A DNA stretch of 64,000 bases from Candidatus Terraquivivens ruidianensis (GTDB lineage: Archaea; Thermoproteota; Nitrososphaeria_A; Caldarchaeales; Wolframiiraptoraceae), in assembly GCA_023267975.1 (NCBI GenBank), contig JALNLA010000002.1:41053-105052 (forward strand), written 5' to 3'. This document shows positions 45,708 through 54,572 of the stretch, one piece after another (the stretch's first letter is position 1; each line of letters starts with the position of its first letter). The notes beneath the pieces are model-generated. The model was given only the letters and a program-made list of their open reading frames with translations. It searched no databases and was not told the origin of the DNA. The position numbers were made by a program, and so were the translations under genes.

Positions 45708-47006
45708 TTATCTTAGCTCAAATTTTGCGCCTAGGCTACCAAAATCTTTGAAGAAGTTTGGGTAGGATACGTTCGTAGATTCTGCTCCCAACACGACACA
45801 TCCATCCCTTAGGACAAGCCCCAGAAGACAGTAGGCCATGAAAAGCCTATGGTCTCCCTTTGGGTTGAGTACGGCATGCTTGACCAACTTGCCCTGTGTT
45901 ATGCTCAATCCACCCGCCATCTCCTTCACGTCCATACCTATCTCAGAAAGGGCATAAGCAAGGGCGCTAACCCTGTCACTCTCTTTAACCCTTGCATGCT
46001 CCACGCCGGTTATCTCGACCGGCCCGTCGCATTTTGTGGCCAATATTGCCAAAACTGGCAAAAGATCTGGAGAATCAGATAGGTTAAAGCTACCACCTTT
46101 GAGTCTACCACTACCGCTCACGGTTACGCGTCCAGAACCGTAATCCAGCTTAACGTTAGCTCCCATCCTGATAAGTATGTCGATTATGGTGGCATCAGCT
46201 TGCGGTAAATCCTGAGTAAGCCCTTCAACCGTAACCGAGCCATCCGTCATGAGCGCCGCAGCCATCATAAAGGAGGCAAGCCCGAAATCTCCTGGTACGA
46301 TGAAACGCGTGGACTTAAAATTCTGCTGTGAAGGAACACGAAAGACCTTGTACCCCTCGTTTTCTATACGAACGCCAAACCGCTCCAGCACGCTTATAGT
46401 TGCGTCAACATAGGGTCTCGAGACAAGGTCTCCTCGTATTCTGAGCGTCGTATCGCCTAAGGCTTTTGGTGATGAGAAAAGTATGGACGAGACAAACTGT
46501 GAGGATATGCTACCGGTCATCCAAGCCTCACCGCCCCTTAACCCGCCGCCTTTAACGACTATGGGCGCGCAACCGTTAAGCCTCGTAGACCAACACTCTC
46601 CCCCGAGCATATTAAGAGCATCGAGGAGTGGCTGCATCGGCCTTCTCCTTATGCTCTCGTCACCCGTGAGAACCGCGTATCCAGCTTGGATTAAACAGCA
46701 TACGCCAGTCATTATCCTCAATGTCGTTCCTGAGTTCTGAACGTTCACGATATCGTCCGGTGCCTTGGGTGTCGAGAAGCCGTTGATGATAAGCTTGCTG
46801 CCTTCTTCGACGATAGACGCACCGAGTTTTCTGCACGCATCCACCGTAGCAAGAACATCATCGGATTTTGAAACGTTTTCTATGATACATTCATCGTCCG
46901 TCATAGAAGCGGCTATGATCGCCCTATGACTGTAGCTTTTACTGGGAGATGCCTGCACCCTGCCCGATATTACCGACGGCCTAACCGAGACCTGCAACGG
47001 AACCAC
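45708..47006 (-). CDS. aroA: 3-phosphoshikimate 1-carboxyvinyltransferase (EPSP synthase)
   Basis: A 432-residue enzyme joining PEP to shikimate 3-phosphate. QASPSKSYSHRAIIAASM at the N-terminus, VQNSGTTLRIMTGV, SSQFVSSILFSSP, and DHRLFMAYCLLGL are the family's substrate-binding blocks. Last gene of the aromatic operon. GTG 47006 overlaps the end of the shikimate kinase gene by 26 nt. Confidence 0.95.
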   Translation of the reverse strand: MVPLQVSVRPSVISGRVQASPSKSYSHRAIIAASMTDDECIIENVSKSDDVLATVDACRKLGASIVEEGSKLIINGFSTPKAPDDIVNVQNSGTTLRIMTGVCCLIQAGYAVLTGDESIRRRPMQPLLDALNMLGGECWSTRLNGCAPIVVKGGGLRGGEAWMTGSISSQFVSSILFSSPKALGDTTLRIRGDLVSRPYVDATISVLERFGVRIENEGYKVFRVPSQQNFKSTRFIVPGDFGLASFMMAAALMTDGSVTVEGLTQDLPQADATIIDILIRMGANVKLDYGSGRVTVSGSGRLKGGSFNLSDSPDLLPVLAILATKCDGPVEITGVEHARVKESDRVSALAYALSEIGMDVKEMAGGLSITQGKLVKHAVLNPKGDHRLFMAYCLLGLVLRDGCVVLGAESTNVSYPNFFKDFGSLGAKFELR

Positions 47007-47859
47007 CGGCCCATGAGTAGGCCTTCTTATTGTTTGGCTTGGTTATTATAAGTTCACACCCTTTTTCATCCAGCGCATTAACAACTTCGCTCACTACGTC
47101 TTTTTTACACACGGCAGCGATTGCTGGTCCCGTGCCGGACAGGCCAGCGGCCAAAGCTCCTGCCTTTATAGCGTCTAGGGCCTTCTTTGCACTGAGGTTT
47201 AACGCCGTTGCATGAAGTATGCCATTAAGCGTTAGGGCTTTCCAATATTCTCCGTCCACAGACATCCTATAAGCATCCTCGACAAACGATGCGATGGGCT
47301 TGAGTGCGTCTTTATCAAAAAATTTAGTATAACTCTTCCATCCTGGGACAAGTATAACGACGGCAAGGTCATCTGGAGCATCGACTCTTTTCACCAATTG
47401 CCTCTTAAGGTTGTTCGTGATGACTATGCCACCATAGTAGCTAGCGCATGCGTCGTCGTATGCGCCGGTTATCGTAACACCAGCCTCGAGGGCAGCGTCG
47501 ACTGCTACGTTTAACGCATCAACGTCGCTTAAGCTCAAATTTGCAGCCCTTGTCGTAGCTAGGACTACGGCGTTAGCGGCTACGCTGGAACTCTTTAACC
47601 CTCTAGCGATAGGTATGTTGGAGTTAACTTCAACATACGCTCCGCAATCCATCCCTGCAAGTTTTAAGACTTTACTCACAGCGACCCTTGCCAACGATGT
47701 ATCCTCGTCCGGGTTTTCTTTTATCACCACGTCTATGCTCCTGCCACCTATTTCTACGGTAGCCTCCGTGTAAAGCTCGATACCCATGGCTACTCCTTTG
47801 CCAATCGATATCGCGTTAACAATCGTTATAGCACCATGCGCTCTGGCAGTTGCTTTCAT
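46981..47859 (-). CDS. aroK: Shikimate kinase, archaeal GHMP type
   Basis: A 292-residue kinase phosphorylating shikimate at the 3-hydroxyl. It belongs to the GHMP superfamily (ARGLKSSSVAANAVVLA is the glycine/Ser-rich ATP loop; GLSGTGPAIAAV the C-terminal motif) and is unrelated to bacterial AroK. The frame is open to 47982, but ATG 47859 forms an ATGA overlap with the aroE stop and gives normal family length (starting MKATARAHGAITIVNAI), so I use that. Confidence 0.94.
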   Translation of the reverse strand: MKATARAHGAITIVNAISIGKGVAMGIELYTEATVEIGGRSIDVVIKENPDEDTSLARVAVSKVLKLAGMDCGAYVEVNSNIPIARGLKSSSVAANAVVLATTRAANLSLSDVDALNVAVDAALEAGVTITGAYDDACASYYGGIVITNNLKRQLVKRVDAPDDLAVVILVPGWKSYTKFFDKDALKPIASFVEDAYRMSVDGEYWKALTLNGILHATALNLSAKKALDAIKAGALAAGLSGTGPAIAAVCKKDVVSEVVNALDEKGCELIITKPNNKKAYSWAGGSVAGLG

Positions 47860-48740
47860 GAGAAACGCCCCAATGCCTCGATGGCTGCCCTCTTCATAAC
47901 CTCTATAGGTGGCTCCAACGATGTCCATAGCCTGAAGGATTCTGCGGCCTGGAAGACCAGCATATCCAGCCCAGAAACGCAAAAGGCACCGGCAAGCCTC
48001 GCTTCCTTTAGGAGCACCGTTTCAATAGGGTTATACACCATGTCCATTACGATGGACCCGCTTCTTATGTGCTCCCTCCTAAGCAAAGAGCTGTCGCTAT
48101 TCGGCCACATACCGACCGGTGTTGCGTTGATGATAATGCCATAAGGTTTAGCGATATTGGACAGGTTGCTGGCCGAGAGACCTAAGCTGTCCGTAGAAAT
48201 TTTAATCCTTTGCTTGAAGAAGTCCGCAAGCCTACGGGCCTTTGAAGGTGTCCGACTAACGAACGTTATACGATTGCAACCGAGTTTAGCCAACGCCAAA
48301 GCGGCAGCCGAGGCCCCTCCACCTGCGCCGAGTATTAGCGCATCGCAACCGCTAAGCATGTCTTTGTAGGGTATGAGGGCGTTTATCACACCCGGAACGT
48401 CCGTGTTGTATCCAATCATCTTGCCCTTTTTAATTACAACAGTGTTCACTGCCTTTATGGTTCTCGCATCGTCCACAAGCTTATCCAAAAATTTCACGAC
48501 CTTCTGCTTGTACGGTATCGTTACGTTAAAGCCTGTTGCTTCTAGAGCTTTAAGACCTATGACGGCAGACCTAAGGGCGTCCTCTTTTACTTCAAAGGCA
48601 ATATAGAAATACTCAAGGTTTAGATAGTTAAACGCAGCATTGTGGACGTCCGAAGATACTGAATGCTTTACAGGCCGTCCTATTAGACCTACAAGCTTTT
48701 TTTTGTTGTCAGGGCCTTTTTGCGTCATGTTCAACGACAT
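47856..48740 (-). CDS. aroE: Shikimate dehydrogenase
   Basis: A 294-residue NADP-dependent enzyme reducing 3-dehydroshikimate. LIGRPVKHSVSSDVHNAAF is the shikimate-binding start; NVTIPYKQKV carries the catalytic Lys; ILGAGGGASAAALALAKLG is the nucleotide loop. It overlaps aroD by 10 nt and aroK by 4 nt. Confidence 0.95.
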   Translation of the reverse strand: MSLNMTQKGPDNKKKLVGLIGRPVKHSVSSDVHNAAFNYLNLEYFYIAFEVKEDALRSAVIGLKALEATGFNVTIPYKQKVVKFLDKLVDDARTIKAVNTVVIKKGKMIGYNTDVPGVINALIPYKDMLSGCDALILGAGGGASAAALALAKLGCNRITFVSRTPSKARRLADFFKQRIKISTDSLGLSASNLSNIAKPYGIIINATPVGMWPNSDSSLLRREHIRSGSIVMDMVYNPIETVLLKEARLAGAFCVSGLDMLVFQAAESFRLWTSLEPPIEVMKRAAIEALGRFS

Positions 48741-49447
48741 CCAGAGTAGTTTGAAGAAAGCACTCGAATAATCTCCTTCGCCTCAAGTATGTTAGGTTGA
48801 CCGGGCGCCGTAGGTGCTCCAGGTAAGGAGACGTACATAAAAGGAGCTCCTAACATCATCGATAGAAACCTTGACAAGGTTCCCTCCGACCCCATGCAGA
48901 AAGCGATAAGCCTATCCTTAGTGTTCATATCGTAAAGTGGGAGAATCTTGAGACTATCGCTGAATGAATTTGCCATGGTTACGACTTTGGCGACATTCCC
49001 GCTCTTCATGGCCAGGTTAGCTATCCGTCGAAGCTCCTCCGTTTCGGGTGTCTTCTTAAAGTCATGCCACGAAATTATGACAGTTATGCCCATCTCCATT
49101 AATTCTTTTGATAAATCTTGGGACAAAGGGGATCGTAGCTCTATGTCTACGTATGCTGGACCTTCTTGGCTTAACTCCTTGAGTATCTCTGCCCTCTCTT
49201 TTTCATCGCCTTTGAAAAATCCTTTCTCGTAATGCGGCCTGAGCGTTAGCACTAGCTTGCCCATGTAGGGTCTTAGCGCTGAGCTTATAGTCCTAGTGTC
49301 TAAATCCTCTAGGTAATCGAGCCTGACCTCTACGAGGTCTGCACCACTCTCGATTGCTTTAACTACTGAATCTTTTAGAAAGTTTACCTTACTTCCGAAT
49401 GTAGACACACATAACCTGAATCGTTCCTTCTTCAACGGTTTCACCAA
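48731..49447 (-). CDS. aroD: 3-dehydroquinate dehydratase, type I
   Basis: A 238-residue class I aldolase-fold enzyme using a Schiff base. DLVEVRLDYLED is the N-terminal motif, VIISWHDFKKTP carries the catalytic His, and VAKVVTMANSFSD contains the Lys that forms the imine. TTG 49447 or GTG 49444 could be the start. 19 nt follow the DHQ synthase stop. Confidence 0.93.
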   Translation of the reverse strand: MVKPLKKERFRLCVSTFGSKVNFLKDSVVKAIESGADLVEVRLDYLEDLDTRTISSALRPYMGKLVLTLRPHYEKGFFKGDEKERAEILKELSQEGPAYVDIELRSPLSQDLSKELMEMGITVIISWHDFKKTPETEELRRIANLAMKSGNVAKVVTMANSFSDSLKILPLYDMNTKDRLIAFCMGSEGTLSRFLSMMLGAPFMYVSLPGAPTAPGQPNILEAKEIIRVLSSNYSGCR

Positions 49448-49466: not shown

Positions 49467-50558
49467 TTATTTCTCTATTATGAACTCATCAACGGCCACT
49501 CCGAAATGTCTAGCCCTCTCTTTGGCTATATGCGCTAACACCTTATCGCCTGGCTTAATGTCGGTTACAGAGATTGTCCTGCCGTCTAGCGTCACGAGCC
49601 TTATGGTCTCGGCATTTTGTACAATAATAGACCCATCTTCACCGTCAACCTTAGCCTTAATGAGTCTCAAGGGTCTCCTCTCTATCTTCGCCCTGCCGAC
49701 GGCTGTCGGTCTCGCTGAACCTTGTGTGTTTACAACCAAGACTCTATCACCCGCGCTTATTTCCGATAGATACTTTGTTCTACCATCAGGCATTAACACA
49801 TAGCTGTGGATGGCGCCCGCGTTCACTCTGAAGGGTCTCGGTTCCGTGAACGAAGAACCTAAAGATTCGTTATGGACAAGGAAGAGAAAGCTTGCCTTGT
49901 TCCCAACTAGCATACCTTCTCCCGTCAAGAGAATGGAGATTGTATCAATGCAAACCCTTTCCCCCATTCCCACGTCCTTAACCTCGGTAACCTCTACCGG
50001 AGAAAGCTGGACTTTCGTAATGTAATTAACCGCCTCAAAGATTCTTCTGACATCCTCTTTACTCCTTGGCTTAAACAGAACGGCATCGACGCCTTTCTCT
50101 AAAATACCATACATGGTCTCAACTTCTTCGGGACTACTAACCTTCGCTATGAGTTTCGTCAACGTTTTTTGTAAACATGCAATTATATTTTCTAACGGTA
50201 TTATCTTCCAATCCTTAGTATCGACTATCAAAGCCTCAGCACCAAGCTTTGCTACAGAGAGGAGTTTCTTAACGTCGCTAGAGTTTAATATGACAGCGTA
50301 TATAGCAAACCTTTTCGCTTGTGGCGTCTCTTTATCAAAAGGAACGATTAAAACGTCACCAACCGGTGAATCTGAGTAGATTGTCAACTTTTGTCTAAAT
50401 TCTAAAGGAATGTTAGTGGGGTCACAATAATACGAGGTAATTCCCCTCGATAGTGCTTCTTTGAAAATTTCACCGTCCCAGTCCCTTAGGTCTATGCAAA
50501 CCTCTTTCTTATTTTTATTCAGCAGAGGCGTCTTTGAGCACCTCCAGCGCCTCGTCAA
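49467..50558 (-). CDS. aroB': 3-dehydroquinate synthase II (archaeal type)
   Basis: A 363-residue protein converting the ADH synthase product to 3-dehydroquinate with NAD, the archaeal route that bypasses DAHP synthase. The C-terminal part carries RPFRVNAGAIHSYVLMPDGR, TKYLSEISAGDRVLVVNTQG and RAKIERRPLRLIKA, diagnostic of the family. The start is unclear. The only conventional codon is a TTG at 50558, 44 nt inside the ADH synthase gene; family-like sequence begins after the overlap, around VCIDLRDWD, with no ATG/GTG/TTG there. Confidence 0.9.
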   Translation of the reverse strand: MTRRWRCSKTPLLNKNKKEVCIDLRDWDGEIFKEALSRGITSYYCDPTNIPLEFRQKLTIYSDSPVGDVLIVPFDKETPQAKRFAIYAVILNSSDVKKLLSVAKLGAEALIVDTKDWKIIPLENIIACLQKTLTKLIAKVSSPEEVETMYGILEKGVDAVLFKPRSKEDVRRIFEAVNYITKVQLSPVEVTEVKDVGMGERVCIDTISILLTGEGMLVGNKASFLFLVHNESLGSSFTEPRPFRVNAGAIHSYVLMPDGRTKYLSEISAGDRVLVVNTQGSARPTAVGRAKIERRPLRLIKAKVDGEDGSIIVQNAETIRLVTLDGRTISVTDIKPGDKVLAHIAKERARHFGVAVDEFIIEK

Positions 50559-51312
50559 CCGTGTAGTCTTCGACTATGATGGCCCTGAGTGCCTTAGTTA
50601 TCGCAAAAGGATTATCATGCTGAAACACGTTTCTACCTATCGCTGCACCGATGGCGCCTGCGTCCATAGCCTCTCTTACCATCTTTAGGACTTCTAAGTC
50701 GCTCTCAGCCTTTGGCCCGCCGGCGATGACTATAGGAACGGGACAACCATCCACGACCTTCCTGAAAGTCTCTGGACTTCCTGTGTAGGGCGTCTTTACT
50801 ATGTCAGCCCCAAGCTCAGCACCTATCCTCGCGACATGTGCAGCAACATCTGGATCGTTAGGGTTTTTTATGTTCTCACCCCTCGGGTACATCATGGCTA
50901 TGAATGGGACGTGCCACCTATCGCACTCATCAGCAAGCATTCCAAGCTTCCTGAGCATCCTCGGCTCGTCGCTACAACCTATGTTAACATGAACAGAGAC
51001 AGCATCCGCTCCAAGCCTCAGAGCCTCTTCTACACTCGAAACCCTCACCTTGAAGTTGGGTGAAGGTCCCAGAGATGTGCTTGCGGAGACGTGCATTATA
51101 GTACCGACTTTCAGAGGCTTGGGCATCATCCTTAATATGCCCTTTTGCATTAGGACGGCGGTTGCTCCTCCCATGCTGACTTTCTCGATCGTGTAAAATA
51201 TCTTGTCTAAACCCTTGACCGGGCCTATTGTAATCCCATGGTCCATCGGTATGCAAAGCATCTTACCTCTTTCTGTTATCCTGTTTAGCCTAACTTGCTT
51301 CCCGAATACCAA
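50515..51312 (-). CDS. aroA': 2-amino-3,7-dideoxy-D-threo-hept-6-ulosonate (ADH) synthase
   Basis: A 265-residue class I aldolase-fold enzyme of the DeoC/LacD superfamily. CIPMDHGITIGPVKGL, ADAVSVHVNIG, DIVKTPYTGSPETF (catalytic Lys) and GAAIGRNVFQHD match the archaeal enzyme that condenses aspartate semialdehyde with a deoxy-ketofructose phosphate. Its place after lysC-asd supports this role rather than glycolytic aldolase. It begins 2 nt after asd. Confidence 0.93.
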   Translation of the reverse strand: MVFGKQVRLNRITERGKMLCIPMDHGITIGPVKGLDKIFYTIEKVSMGGATAVLMQKGILRMMPKPLKVGTIMHVSASTSLGPSPNFKVRVSSVEEALRLGADAVSVHVNIGCSDEPRMLRKLGMLADECDRWHVPFIAMMYPRGENIKNPNDPDVAAHVARIGAELGADIVKTPYTGSPETFRKVVDGCPVPIVIAGGPKAESDLEVLKMVREAMDAGAIGAAIGRNVFQHDNPFAITKALRAIIVEDYTVDEALEVLKDASAE

Positions 51313-51314
51313 GC

Positions 51315-52370
51315 TTAATCTATCCTCCCCGTTGCATGCAGGAGTTCGGCTGTCAGTATCGCTATGCCAGCAGCACCCCTTACCGTGTTATGGCTAAGAA
51401 CAAAGAGCTTCAAAGCTTTCTCATCCTTTGCAGACCTTATCCTTCCAACAACTGCGCTCATGCCTGGGACGCTTCCGGCGTATATGTCGAGCCTAGGTTG
51501 CGGCCTGTCCTCTTCCTCCATGACGATTATCGGTCTCTCGGGAGCTGTGGGAAGGTTTAACTCCTGCGGAAGGCCCTTGAACTCCGCCAGAGTCTTCTTC
51601 ACACCATCCACACCTACAGCTTTCTCGGTCTCGACATAAACGGATTCTAAATGTCCATCTATCGTGGGAACCCTAGTACAGCTGGCCTCGATGGTTATAT
51701 GAGCTGGCTCGATGAGTCCGTCTTTAAACCTTCCCAATATCTTAAGCGTTTCTTTCTCCACCTTGCCCTCCTCGCCCGATATGTACGGTATTACATTTCC
51801 GAGTATGGAGAGCGATGGTACGCCGGGGAAACCCGCTCCCGAGACTGCCTGCATCGTAGTTACGACAACTTTCTTGAGGACGTAAGCATCGTGTAGGGGT
51901 TTAAGGGGCATGACTAAGCCTATGGTCGTGCAGTTCGGTGTAGTTACGATGTATCCATCCCACTTCCTATTTCTTCTTTGCACATCTATCAGCTCGATAT
52001 GCCCGGGATTTATCTCCGGCACAATGAGCGGTACATCCTTTTCCATCCTATGAGCGGATGCGTCGCTCACGACATTAAAGCCTTCTTTGGCAAAGAGCGG
52101 CTCTGATTCATGGGCAGCCTCCGTCGGTAACGGAGAGAACACCAAATCTGCATCAACGTACTTAGGCTCAGTCGGTAAGACTTCCATGTCTGCTACGCTA
52201 GATGGGATGTCAACGGGGTTACCCCTTACGGCCTCGCCATACTTCTTACCGATTGATTCCTTTCCAGTGAGGCATGATAGTTTGAACCATGGATGTCTCG
52301 AAAGCATGCTTACGTACCGCTGGCCGACCATTCCCGTAGCTCCTAGCACTGCAACCCTAATTTGTTTCAT
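51315..52370 (-). CDS. asd: Aspartate-semialdehyde dehydrogenase
   Basis: A 351-residue enzyme reducing aspartyl phosphate to aspartate semialdehyde. VAVLGATGMVGQRYVSMLS is the NADP loop, VTTPNCTTIGLVMPLKPL carries the catalytic Cys, and AVSGAGFPGVPSL follows. It is the archaeal/fungal-like subgroup. The start overlaps the end of lysC by 14 nt. Its product feeds both lysine/threonine/methionine synthesis and, here, the aromatic pathway. Confidence 0.95.
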   Translation of the reverse strand: MKQIRVAVLGATGMVGQRYVSMLSRHPWFKLSCLTGKESIGKKYGEAVRGNPVDIPSSVADMEVLPTEPKYVDADLVFSPLPTEAAHESEPLFAKEGFNVVSDASAHRMEKDVPLIVPEINPGHIELIDVQRRNRKWDGYIVTTPNCTTIGLVMPLKPLHDAYVLKKVVVTTMQAVSGAGFPGVPSLSILGNVIPYISGEEGKVEKETLKILGRFKDGLIEPAHITIEASCTRVPTIDGHLESVYVETEKAVGVDGVKKTLAEFKGLPQELNLPTAPERPIIVMEEEDRPQPRLDIYAGSVPGMSAVVGRIRSAKDEKALKLFVLSHNTVRGAAGIAILTAELLHATGRID

Positions 52371-53580
52371 TCAACTCCACCTCCAGATTCGACTTTACAA
52401 GAGAGGCGGCCTTATCCGCATCCTTTGCGGACACGAATATTCTGATAGACGAGCTTATCGTCACCAAACCGTAGATGTTTATGCTGTGAGATGCAAGTGG
52501 TGCTACAACTTTATGTATCACGCCCGGACTCGTCTCGAGTAGTCTGCCACTTATGCTTATCGCGGATAGGCCTTCAAAGAAGCTTATGGCCTTACCCATG
52601 CCCGACTCCACGAACTCCTTATGCAACTCATCCATCAACTTGGCGCCTAAGTCAGTGTAAACGATGATGGACTTTTCGCCGGTCGTAACGTTAAGAATTT
52701 CTCCTCCATGCTTTTGGATGAATTCCACGATGGGCTTGACCATCGACGCTCCATCCGAGTTTCTCGAGAGTATCGTTATCATAGTTACCTTAGCCGGATG
52801 TTTACTGACTTCGAGTTTTGGAAGGGTACCAATTATAACGGTTCCTGACCTCCCGAGACCTTCCATGCTGGATATTCTCAGCCTGAGGCCTTCCGATAAG
52901 TATCTTAATGCCTTCGAGTGAACGACCTTCGCACCGCCCTCCGTCAGCAGCCTAACCTCGTCTACGTTAAGCGTCTCGAGCATCTCGGCTTTACTGACTT
53001 TATCTGGGTCTCCTGAGTATATGCCCTCAACATCCTTGACCAAGATAACCTCTGCAGCGTTTAGACAGCTACCGAGAAGTATGGCAGTCGTGTCGCTGCC
53101 ACCCCTGCCCAGCGTAGTTATCTTGCCGGAGATAGTAACGCCGATGTACCCGCACACAACGGGAACCTTGCCGGCCTCGATTAGGGGTAAGAGTTTCTCT
53201 TTACATCTTCTCTCCGTTTCTTGGTAGATAGGGTTTGCATCGAGATGTACATCGTCCGTTACTACAGGCCAGTATTCAGTGGCTGGGTCTACTAAGACCG
53301 CATCAACACCGAATCTATTTAACGCGGCCGTGAAAAGTCTAGCGCTAGTCCTTTCGCCCATTGCCAGGACCTCGTCGAGCATGTCCGGCCGGATATCCGG
53401 GTTCACTTCCTTGGCAGTCTTTAACAGCTCGTCTGTCATGCCCTTCAGCGCCGAGACGACTACCAATAGCCCATGCTCCTTCAGCAGACCTTTTACCCAA
53501 GATGCCGCCTTTTCAAGAGTCTTAGAGTCTTGAAGGACGGAGCCACCAAGCTTTACTACCATTATATCTTTCATAGACAT
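52357..53580 (-). CDS. lysC: Aspartate kinase
   Basis: A 407-residue enzyme making aspartyl phosphate. VVKLGGSVLQD, TTLGRGGSDTTAILLG and KDVEGIYSGDPDKV are the kinase motifs; two C-terminal ACT domains (about residues 265-405) allow feedback control by amino acids. It is the first gene of the aromatic operon. GGAGGGAGG just upstream could serve either ATG 53580 or ATG 53574. The leader RNA before it can hide that ribosome-binding site. Confidence 0.95.
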   Translation of the reverse strand: MSMKDIMVVKLGGSVLQDSKTLEKAASWVKGLLKEHGLLVVVSALKGMTDELLKTAKEVNPDIRPDMLDEVLAMGERTSARLFTAALNRFGVDAVLVDPATEYWPVVTDDVHLDANPIYQETERRCKEKLLPLIEAGKVPVVCGYIGVTISGKITTLGRGGSDTTAILLGSCLNAAEVILVKDVEGIYSGDPDKVSKAEMLETLNVDEVRLLTEGGAKVVHSKALRYLSEGLRLRISSMEGLGRSGTVIIGTLPKLEVSKHPAKVTMITILSRNSDGASMVKPIVEFIQKHGGEILNVTTGEKSIIVYTDLGAKLMDELHKEFVESGMGKAISFFEGLSAISISGRLLETSPGVIHKVVAPLASHSINIYGLVTISSSIRIFVSAKDADKAASLVKSNLEVELNETN

Positions 53581-53582
53581 GA

Positions 53583-53714
53583 CCTCCCTCCAAAGCTGGT
53601 AAAACCATCAAAGAAAAGATGGCTTCAGAGAGAGGCGTCCAGCTCGCTATAGCGATAATAGCTATAGCCGTTTGTGAGGAAAAGGCAATCCCTCACGTTC
53701 GCCGCCTCTCTTTG
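53583..53714 (-). promoter_or_regulatory. Structured 5' leader of lysC, candidate riboswitch/attenuator
   Basis: The minus-strand RNA folds into a perfect three-way junction. P1 is AGAGAGGCG/CGCCTCTCT (53711-53703 with 53637-53629), P2 is GTGAGG/CCTCAC (53696-53691 with 53679-53674), and P3 is GCTATAGC/GCTATAGC (53668-53661 with 53653-53646). A hairpin AAGCCATC/GATGGTTT (53625-53618 with 53609-53602) follows. The 3' strand of P1 contains CCTCTCTC (53635-53628), which can instead pair over 8 bp (one G-U) with GAGGGAGG (53590-53583), the lysC ribosome-binding site. P1 and exposure of the start site are therefore linked. It does not match lysine-, TPP- or purine-riboswitch consensus that I know. 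Confidence 0.68.
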
Positions 53715-53736
53715 GATTAACTGCATGCACGTTTGT

Positions 53737-53744
53737 TATTTAAG
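53737..53744 (-). promoter_or_regulatory. TATA box of the lysC-aro operon
   Basis: The minus strand reads CTTAAATA within GCTTAAATAAC. About 26 bp downstream is position 53714, so the transcript would begin almost exactly at the first strand of the P1 helix. Confidence 0.6.
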
Positions 53745-53939
53745 CATTTCGAGTACATGAGAAGTTGTGCTAAGGTCCCATGCATGCGCTAAAACTAAAC
53801 GTTTTTTGCATATTCGCATCGTTTAATGGCAAAGGTTGATCGAAACTTCTTAAGTATTTATATAAGGACGCAATTAGATGTAAGTGGTTTTTAAGCTAAG
53901 CCATGAACGTTTTTCAAAAAAGGGGTGTCATTAGCGTTC

Positions 53940-54572
53940 ATGTCTAAGAGTAGAACGAGAAGTTGTGCTTGCGTCATTCTCGTAAACGGAAGGGGTTACA
54001 TGGGTGATAAAAAAGGCCTAACGAAGATAGCGGGAAGACCTATGATCGAATACGTCCTCGATAGCGTACCCGACGAGGTCACGGAGCTTTTCGTATCCGT
54101 CGAGAACGAAACGCAGGCCGCCGCTTACGAGCCCATATGCGAAAAGTATTTTGCATCGGTCATGAAAATGGAAAAAACACAGTACCCAAATGAGTCTGAA
54201 AAGGTAAGGGAAGTTTTGGGGAATACTCCAGGCTCTAACATACTCATCCTTCCATGCGACATGCCGTGCCTTACCTTAGAATTTACTCAATTTTTGTTGG
54301 AAGCCTCCAAAAAGTTCACGGCCGTGCTACCGAGGATGCTGGACAATAACGTCAACTTCAGCTTAGCGTCTTACCAAGTCGAGCCCTTTATTGAAGCCTT
54401 TAAAAAATATCCTGAGACGCAAATGCCCGAGCTTATCAAGAAACTTCGGAACGTCCTTTACATGTCAACCAACTCTCTTAGGATGTTTGATAATAAACTT
54501 AGCATTCTATACAGGGTATCCTCTGTAGCGGACATACCCAAAGTGGAAAACGTGCTTCGCAACAAGTTATGA
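53940..54572 (+). CDS. MobA-like nucleotidyltransferase
   Basis: A 210-residue protein with CVILVNGRGYMGDKKGLTKI, the NTP-binding loop of MobA/GlmU-type transferases, and later ILILPCDMPCLT (metal-binding Asp). MobA adds GMP or CMP to molybdopterin; other family members activate sugars or polyols. No molybdenum genes are nearby, so the substrate is open. GTG 53925 is an alternative start preceded by GGGG. It is divergent from lysC; the 358-bp gap between them also holds the leader RNA. Confidence 0.72.
   Translation: MSKSRTRSCACVILVNGRGYMGDKKGLTKIAGRPMIEYVLDSVPDEVTELFVSVENETQAAAYEPICEKYFASVMKMEKTQYPNESEKVREVLGNTPGSNILILPCDMPCLTLEFTQFLLEASKKFTAVLPRMLDNNVNFSLASYQVEPFIEAFKKYPETQMPELIKKLRNVLYMSTNSLRMFDNKLSILYRVSSVADIPKVENVLRNKL

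Follow-up and report, generated by a model that had tools for sequence, protein, structure and literature searches.

What controls the operon that begins with lysC in the window analysed here, a 64,000-nt stretch of a contig from Candidatus Terraquivivens ruidianensis? By Pfam domains, this minus-strand operon runs lysC-asd-ADH synthase-DHQ synthase II-aroD-aroE-shikimate kinase-EPSP synthase, a gene content that identifies aromatics as its product. Directly before lysC, the initial annotation had described a folded leader and proposed a riboswitch or attenuator; it overlooked an open reading frame inside the structure. The attenuator part of that proposal fits, in the sense of a leader that acts in cis, through pairings that exclude one another, on an aspartate-to-aromatic operon. 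We consider it quite probable that the leader is a ribosome-mediated attenuator, which senses the supply of Phe, Tyr and Trp at the head of an archaeal shikimate operon.

The folded leader of Terraquivivens and its reading frame

The 117-nt leader folds on the minus strand at -50.4 kcal/mol, and none of 200 shuffles was as stable (z -5.9). All three stems described initially are present, including P1, in which AGAGAGGCG and CGCCTCTCT form 9 bp. Given the position of a BRE/TATA-like element (Table 1), the expected transcript start lies close to 53713, at the base of P1, in line with the earlier proposal. A portion of P1 (CCUCUCUC) is complementary to GGAGGGAGGU in the lysC Shine-Dalgarno (SD) sequence, so the P1 3' strand may indeed pair with this site. 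The fourth hairpin (P4) is part of the leader as it was described, but it is unconserved and often broken in relatives (67% of cells paired over six genomes).

Within the structure lies a short upstream ORF (uORF), whose SD, AGAGAGG, is found about 8 nt before the GTG in all six genomes. This SD is the 5' strand of P1, and the P1 3' strand ends at the uORF stop. Since the uORF spans P2, P3 and the P1 3' strand, the stems coincide with its SD, start, Tyr codons and end. The same uORF occurs in public record NDWU01000010.1 (L008), a contig of the relative Candidatus Terraquivivens tikiterensis with 92% identity in lysC; the contig search gave one other, unrelated match.

The leader is present in six genomes of the genus, counting that of the window, and we aligned these in the sense direction. 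Conservation extends from the TATA box to lysC, and the sequence upstream of the TATA box is not conserved. P1 shows zero variation; P2 shows G-U variation at two pairs, one outer pair broken in one genome and a nearly invariant loop; the inner P3 stem is 94% paired with no covariation. The hope that covarying pairs would support the stems was borne out only in lower P3, where two pairs show both-sided changes with weak shuffle support (84/500). With no variation in P1 and very little in P2, covariation is unable to test these two stems, and the fold cannot be proven in this way from six similar genomes. Rfam searches of the leader at gathering and relaxed thresholds returned chance matches only, and the T-box covariance model gave no match, in agreement with the view that no known family corresponds to this fold.

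Across the six genomes, the uORF peptide reads MRDCLFLTxGYSYYRYSELDASL or a close variant; five of the ORFs end in TGA and one in TAA. A Tyr TAT is replaced by Trp TGG in two of the six, and the aromatic codons are otherwise kept. The remaining two frames contain no aromatic-to-aromatic change, and one of them shows stop mismatches. Counting against the attenuator reading, non-synonymous changes in the uORF outnumber synonymous ones (75 vs 16). All the Tyr codons of the regulatory run are TAT; 15 genes of the window favour TAC (101 v 59).

Table 1. Features of the lysC leader and operon in the window, and uORF peptides in other lineages
Feature	Position	Strand	Basis or detail
BRE/TATA-like promoter element CGAAATGCTTAAATAAC	53735-53751	-	sequence; kept in six genus members (CGAAAYGYTTAAATAA)
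P1 5' strand AGAGAGGCG, holding putative uORF SD AGAGAGG	53703-53711	-	invariant in six genomes
uORF MRDCLFLTNGYSYYRYSELDASL, GTG start, 23 codons, TGA stop	53625-53696	-	frame and length kept in 6/6 genomes
P2 hairpin, beginning at uORF start codon	53674-53697	-	paired in 97.6% of cells; one-sided G-U changes at two pairs
P3, lower stem CCRGCU/AGCYGG and inner hairpin over Tyr codons	53639-53671	-	lower stem with two both-sided compensatory pairs
Tyr-rich run TAT AGC TAT TAT CGC TAT, uORF codons 11-16, proposed regulatory codons	53649-53666	-	sequence
P1 3' strand CGCCTCTCT, final uORF codons; candidate anti-SD for uORF SD or lysC SD	53629-53637	-	invariant
CCAGCT, alternative partner of P3 AGCYGG in place of P3 5' strand	53594-53599	-	sequence
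lysC SD GGAGGGAGGT	53582-53591	-	sequence
lysC, aspartokinase, first gene of operon	52357-53580	-	Pfam AA_kinase and ACT
asd, aspartate-semialdehyde dehydrogenase	51315-52370	-	Pfam
ADH synthase-like aldolase (aroA')	50515-51312	-	Pfam DeoC/LacD; name from operon context
3-dehydroquinate synthase II (aroB')	49467-50558	-	Pfam DHQS
aroD, aroE, GHMP-type shikimate kinase, EPSP synthase	45708-49447	-	Pfam
lysC uORF peptide, f1 g5			MELTKNACIVFFFSFWSYYYFALA
lysC uORF peptide, f1 g3			MAGFSLTGWRFFFGFWSYGYFALA
lysC uORF peptide, f4 g10			VRATGLTYTGFSTFTTFSYYYRW
lysC uORF peptide, f4 g11			MKAAHFYRFSGYTYYRI
lysC uORF peptide, f4 g12			AKAFTYYWPFGYTTFSFFYYRG, no ATG, GTG or TTG start
lysC uORF peptide, f59			..AAYSWPLYGYSW
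lysC uORF peptides, f20			..FNPYYYYYYYCFF and ..YAFKAYRYYYRFF
lysC uORF peptide, f5			..FYSFEYSFYYYFN
lysC uORF peptide, f48			..TFHYPYFYFFYCYYFFEG
lysC uORF peptide, f69			MSRMLPVIAFRSYAAFFFSYR
uORF before ADH synthase, f1 g2			..LWSYWYFGFYYFALA
uORFs before asd, f2			..TTYAYFFGP, ..FTTYAYFYAWKS

Aromatic uORFs in other genera and families

Relatives were found by an aspartokinase search, and their upstream regions were then read for ORFs. We use f labels for families without taxonomic names and g labels for genera, g1 being Terraquivivens; f1 is probably Wolframiiraptoraceae, because Terraquivivens belongs to this family of the Caldarchaeales (PMC9246946). Beyond the genus, the sequence changes and the three-way junction is not kept, yet the leading gene of this operon is repeatedly preceded by an aromatic-rich uORF, with peptides such as FFFSFWSYYYFALA, FNPYYYYYYYCFF, SFEYSFYYYFN and HYPYFYFFYCYYFFEG, each followed by a stop codon. 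Counting both the cases called by the statistic described below and those accepted by resemblance to them, 47 genomes from eight archaeal families carry an aromatic uORF, whether lysC, asd or ADH synthase leads (6 g1, 5 g5, 1 g3, 4 g2, 2 g10, 1 g11, 1 g12, 9 f2, 13 f5, 2 f20, and 1 each in f48, f59 and f69); a weak case in f17 stands outside this number. The sequences themselves show the uORF with its conservation and aromatic codons, its link to the operon head in eight families, and alternative pairings open to the uORF end. The f2 uORFs may be leaderless. In g12 (L061), the aromatic uORF AFTYYWPFGYTTFSFFYYRG before lysC is without ATG, GTG or TTG, suggesting either ATA or another start, or an assembly error.

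As a chance test, we scored short ORFs by the largest number of aromatic codons in a 12-codon stretch, taking 200 nt upstream for lysC and its paralog and 240 nt for the other genes. A locus was called when it held ≥4 aromatic codons and ≤5% of dinucleotide shuffles reached its score, a threshold set after the first lysC results were known. On this basis 21/30 lysC orthologs, 4/4 ADHS-headed operons and six of the nine asd-headed ones were called, compared with 1/57 pooled controls. The latter comprised the second aspartokinase (0/16) and hisG (0/30), both imperfect as controls because many may lie inside operons, a second ADHS-like gene (1/8) and g8 asd (0/3). Terraquivivens leaders score modestly (10/300 shuffles for the window genome, one relative below the cut), and three of the window's 59 long ORFs, the uORF included, reach the raw score of the uORF; the case for these leaders is one of sequence conservation, not of the statistic alone. 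A profile of f5 peptides searched against 398 genomes gave 13 matches at E≤1e-4, seven in genomes that had supplied the profile and six new, all of them directly before lysC.

In g5 and g3, pairwise in-frame changes comprised 41 synonymous and 61 non-synonymous ones, 16 of the latter being aromatic-to-aromatic; stop mismatches were absent, and all three stop codons are used at one position. ADH-synthase/shikimate genes come after lysC at ten leader-bearing loci. In G024, lysC stands alone and the leader is absent, and in g11 the leader heads lysC-asd with the aro genes not adjoining. As a further point against the attenuator reading, one f3 locus (L086) has the full operon with no visible leader upstream. 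Families f39 and f58 have no aromatic leader upstream of lysC. No His-codon leaders were found upstream of hisG, nor a convincing set of Trp leaders upstream of trpE. We regard it as probable that archaea use codon-sensing leader-peptide attenuation, in at least eight families of one phylum, at an aspartokinase/ADH-synthase/shikimate operon and through a Tyr/Phe/Trp uORF whose peptide and RNA structure change fast.

Other short ORFs were seen at some of these loci. In f3 (L063/L086, L064), lysC shows no obvious ATG, GTG or TTG where the start is conserved, and a short ORF such as MRGDCVYNCQ overlaps it. A strongly conserved block around GGGGATGGGTGGTCATCTTTACTGGCAT, not aromatic-rich, precedes lysC in f58 (L203-L214, L216), and in most of these it encodes MGGHLYWHKPAPETLIQV or a near variant in one frame. 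In f39 (L196, L198, L199, L201, L202), a GDxVFGDGVY-like motif recurs in short ORFs that precede or overlap lysC, and lysC may have an N-terminal extension in this family. In one f14 genome (L136), the short ORF MRDIIWHYWFNR ends in a stop codon and lies 55 nt before the trpE ORF, a possible Trp leader.

Pairing choices, ribosome position and alternative readings

The P1 3' strand has two mutually exclusive partners, the uORF SD and the lysC SD. Pairing of the uORF end with the lysC ribosome-binding site (RBS) beats shuffles in the six g1 genomes (z -1.3 to -4.5), and the corresponding pairing with the main RBS is above shuffles in g1, g10-g12, f20 and f5, but not in most g5/g3 genomes nor in f59. 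This pairing would block expression. Pairing of the uORF start with the uORF end has strong energies, yet it is not above shuffles in most lineages. In f20, the uORF stop marks the beginning of a hairpin with a U-tract behind it, an arrangement that resembles a terminator. Beside the lysC SD in g1, the AGCYGG:CCAGCU pairing is good in L001, L002 and L005, and partial with compensation in L006, but in L003 and L004 it is weak or disrupted. Where it forms, the leader would have a choice of 2:3 versus 3:4 pairing like that of trp, which applies to part of the six-genome set only.

In the attenuator that we propose, ribosomes would load at the uORF SD within P1 and translate the short peptide, whose key Tyr, Phe and Trp codons correspond to the end products of the operon and lie near the uORF end in most lineages. 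A short supply of aromatic aminoacyl-tRNA would hold the ribosome on these codons; with an ample supply, the ribosome would reach the stop and leave. Depending on where the ribosome stands, RNA around the uORF stop would or would not pair with the main RBS, and operon expression would follow; in f20, the terminator-like hairpin would form or not form instead. We infer that the uORF is translated, that ribosomes stall on it and that starvation raises expression; the output step would be translation initiation in most lineages and possibly transcription termination in f20.

Ribosome occlusion was modelled by masking a footprint stepwise along each uORF and computing exposure of the main SD by naive folding, which handles footprint size, co-transcriptional folding, pseudoknots and temperature poorly. 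A guessed-pattern search for the 16S 3' end gave no match, and the anti-SD sequence was therefore assumed. In g10, g11 and f20, the main SD is exposed when the modelled ribosome covers the last aromatic codons; in most f5 genomes this happens with the ribosome on the final codons. In g1, a modelled ribosome over the Tyr codons leaves the lysC SD mostly closed, and the site opens only once the ribosome lies between roughly codon 17 and the stop. In g5/g3, a modelled stall on the Tyr codons mostly reduces exposure. A uniform rule, by which stalling on the aromatic codons opens the main RBS, is unsupported in g1, and the modelled effect in g5/g3 is mostly the opposite. Because g1 opens late and g5/g3 are reversed, no single simple RBS-occlusion scheme fits all lineages, and the sign of the effect is unproven.

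Some of these predictions bear on nascent-peptide arrest, in which the uORF peptide would stall the ribosome at high free aromatic amino acid, as TnaC does, and the main RBS would be kept closed. With a ribosome on the last Tyr/Phe codons of a g5/g3 uORF, predicted SD exposure falls (0.02 in L021 versus 0.40 at the stop), and residues besides the aromatics are conserved in these peptides (FWSYxYFALA). Between families, however, the peptide sequences are wholly different and share aromatic content alone, and Y, F and W swap at one position, as suits codon sensing; we therefore regard arrest as unlikely. The metabolite-binding riboswitch suggested initially, a three-way junction that recognises an aromatic or aspartate-family compound, draws on the strong fold, on the near invariance of P1, P2 and the P2 loop within the genus and on the anti-SD layout. 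These invariant parts double as the uORF SD, start and codons, though, P4 is not conserved, Rfam gives no match, and relatives lose the fold while keeping the aromatic uORF. The conserved element is the aromatic-codon uORF, and we regard a riboswitch as very improbable. We give the least credence to a uORF that is translated into a small functional protein, or merely boosts lysC reinitiation, without sensing. The short uORF-to-gene spacing, about 40-60 nt in most lysC-headed loci, would suit such a role, but what the families share is the aromatic run and not the peptide sequence, and aromatic uORFs are rare in control upstream regions (1/57).

Known systems and implications

Amino-acid leader peptides are a textbook form of bacterial regulation. 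Like the trpL and pheL type of ribosome-mediated attenuation (PMC1183508), the archaeal leader has a short ORF of end-product codons, overlapping alternative pairings and a place at the head of a biosynthetic operon. Unlike it, the archaeal leader would sense Phe, Tyr and Trp jointly, at the lysC/ADH-synthase head of a shikimate operon, and in most lineages its competing pairing reaches the main RBS and not a classical terminator; no sequence similarity between the two was noted. With ermC-type translational attenuation (PMC10219788) it shares the combination of a leader ORF with an alternative structure that sequesters an SD, but its inducer would be uncharged aromatic tRNA instead of a drug, and in g1 the uORF SD itself belongs to the switch helix. 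The tnaC leader peptide, arrested by free Trp, also senses aromatics, but it governs breakdown, and the archaeal families share no conserved arrest motif. Translational riboswitches show the same anti-SD/SD competition, whereas the archaeal leader has neither an aptamer conserved across relatives nor an Rfam match.

According to a 2010 survey, leader-peptide systems had until then been known in Proteobacteria and Actinobacteria alone, and the survey extended them to Firmicutes (PMC2965389). Regulation by uORFs in archaea is mentioned in one general sentence (PMC10219788). In the open-access literature that was searched, we found no archaeal amino-acid leader peptide; given this scope, priority is uncertain. 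If the attenuator reading is true, translation-based sensing of amino-acid supply extends to a second domain, close coupling of the ribosome with mRNA folding or termination in archaea would be implied, and one of the two aspartokinases in these genomes would be assigned to aromatic synthesis. Testable leaders are available in several lineages, probably including the family of the cultivated Wolframiiraptor gerlachensis.

We also noted a direct repeat, GAGAAGTTGTGCT, at about 53763-53776 and 53957-53969 of the window, ahead of and at the start of a divergent MobA-like gene.
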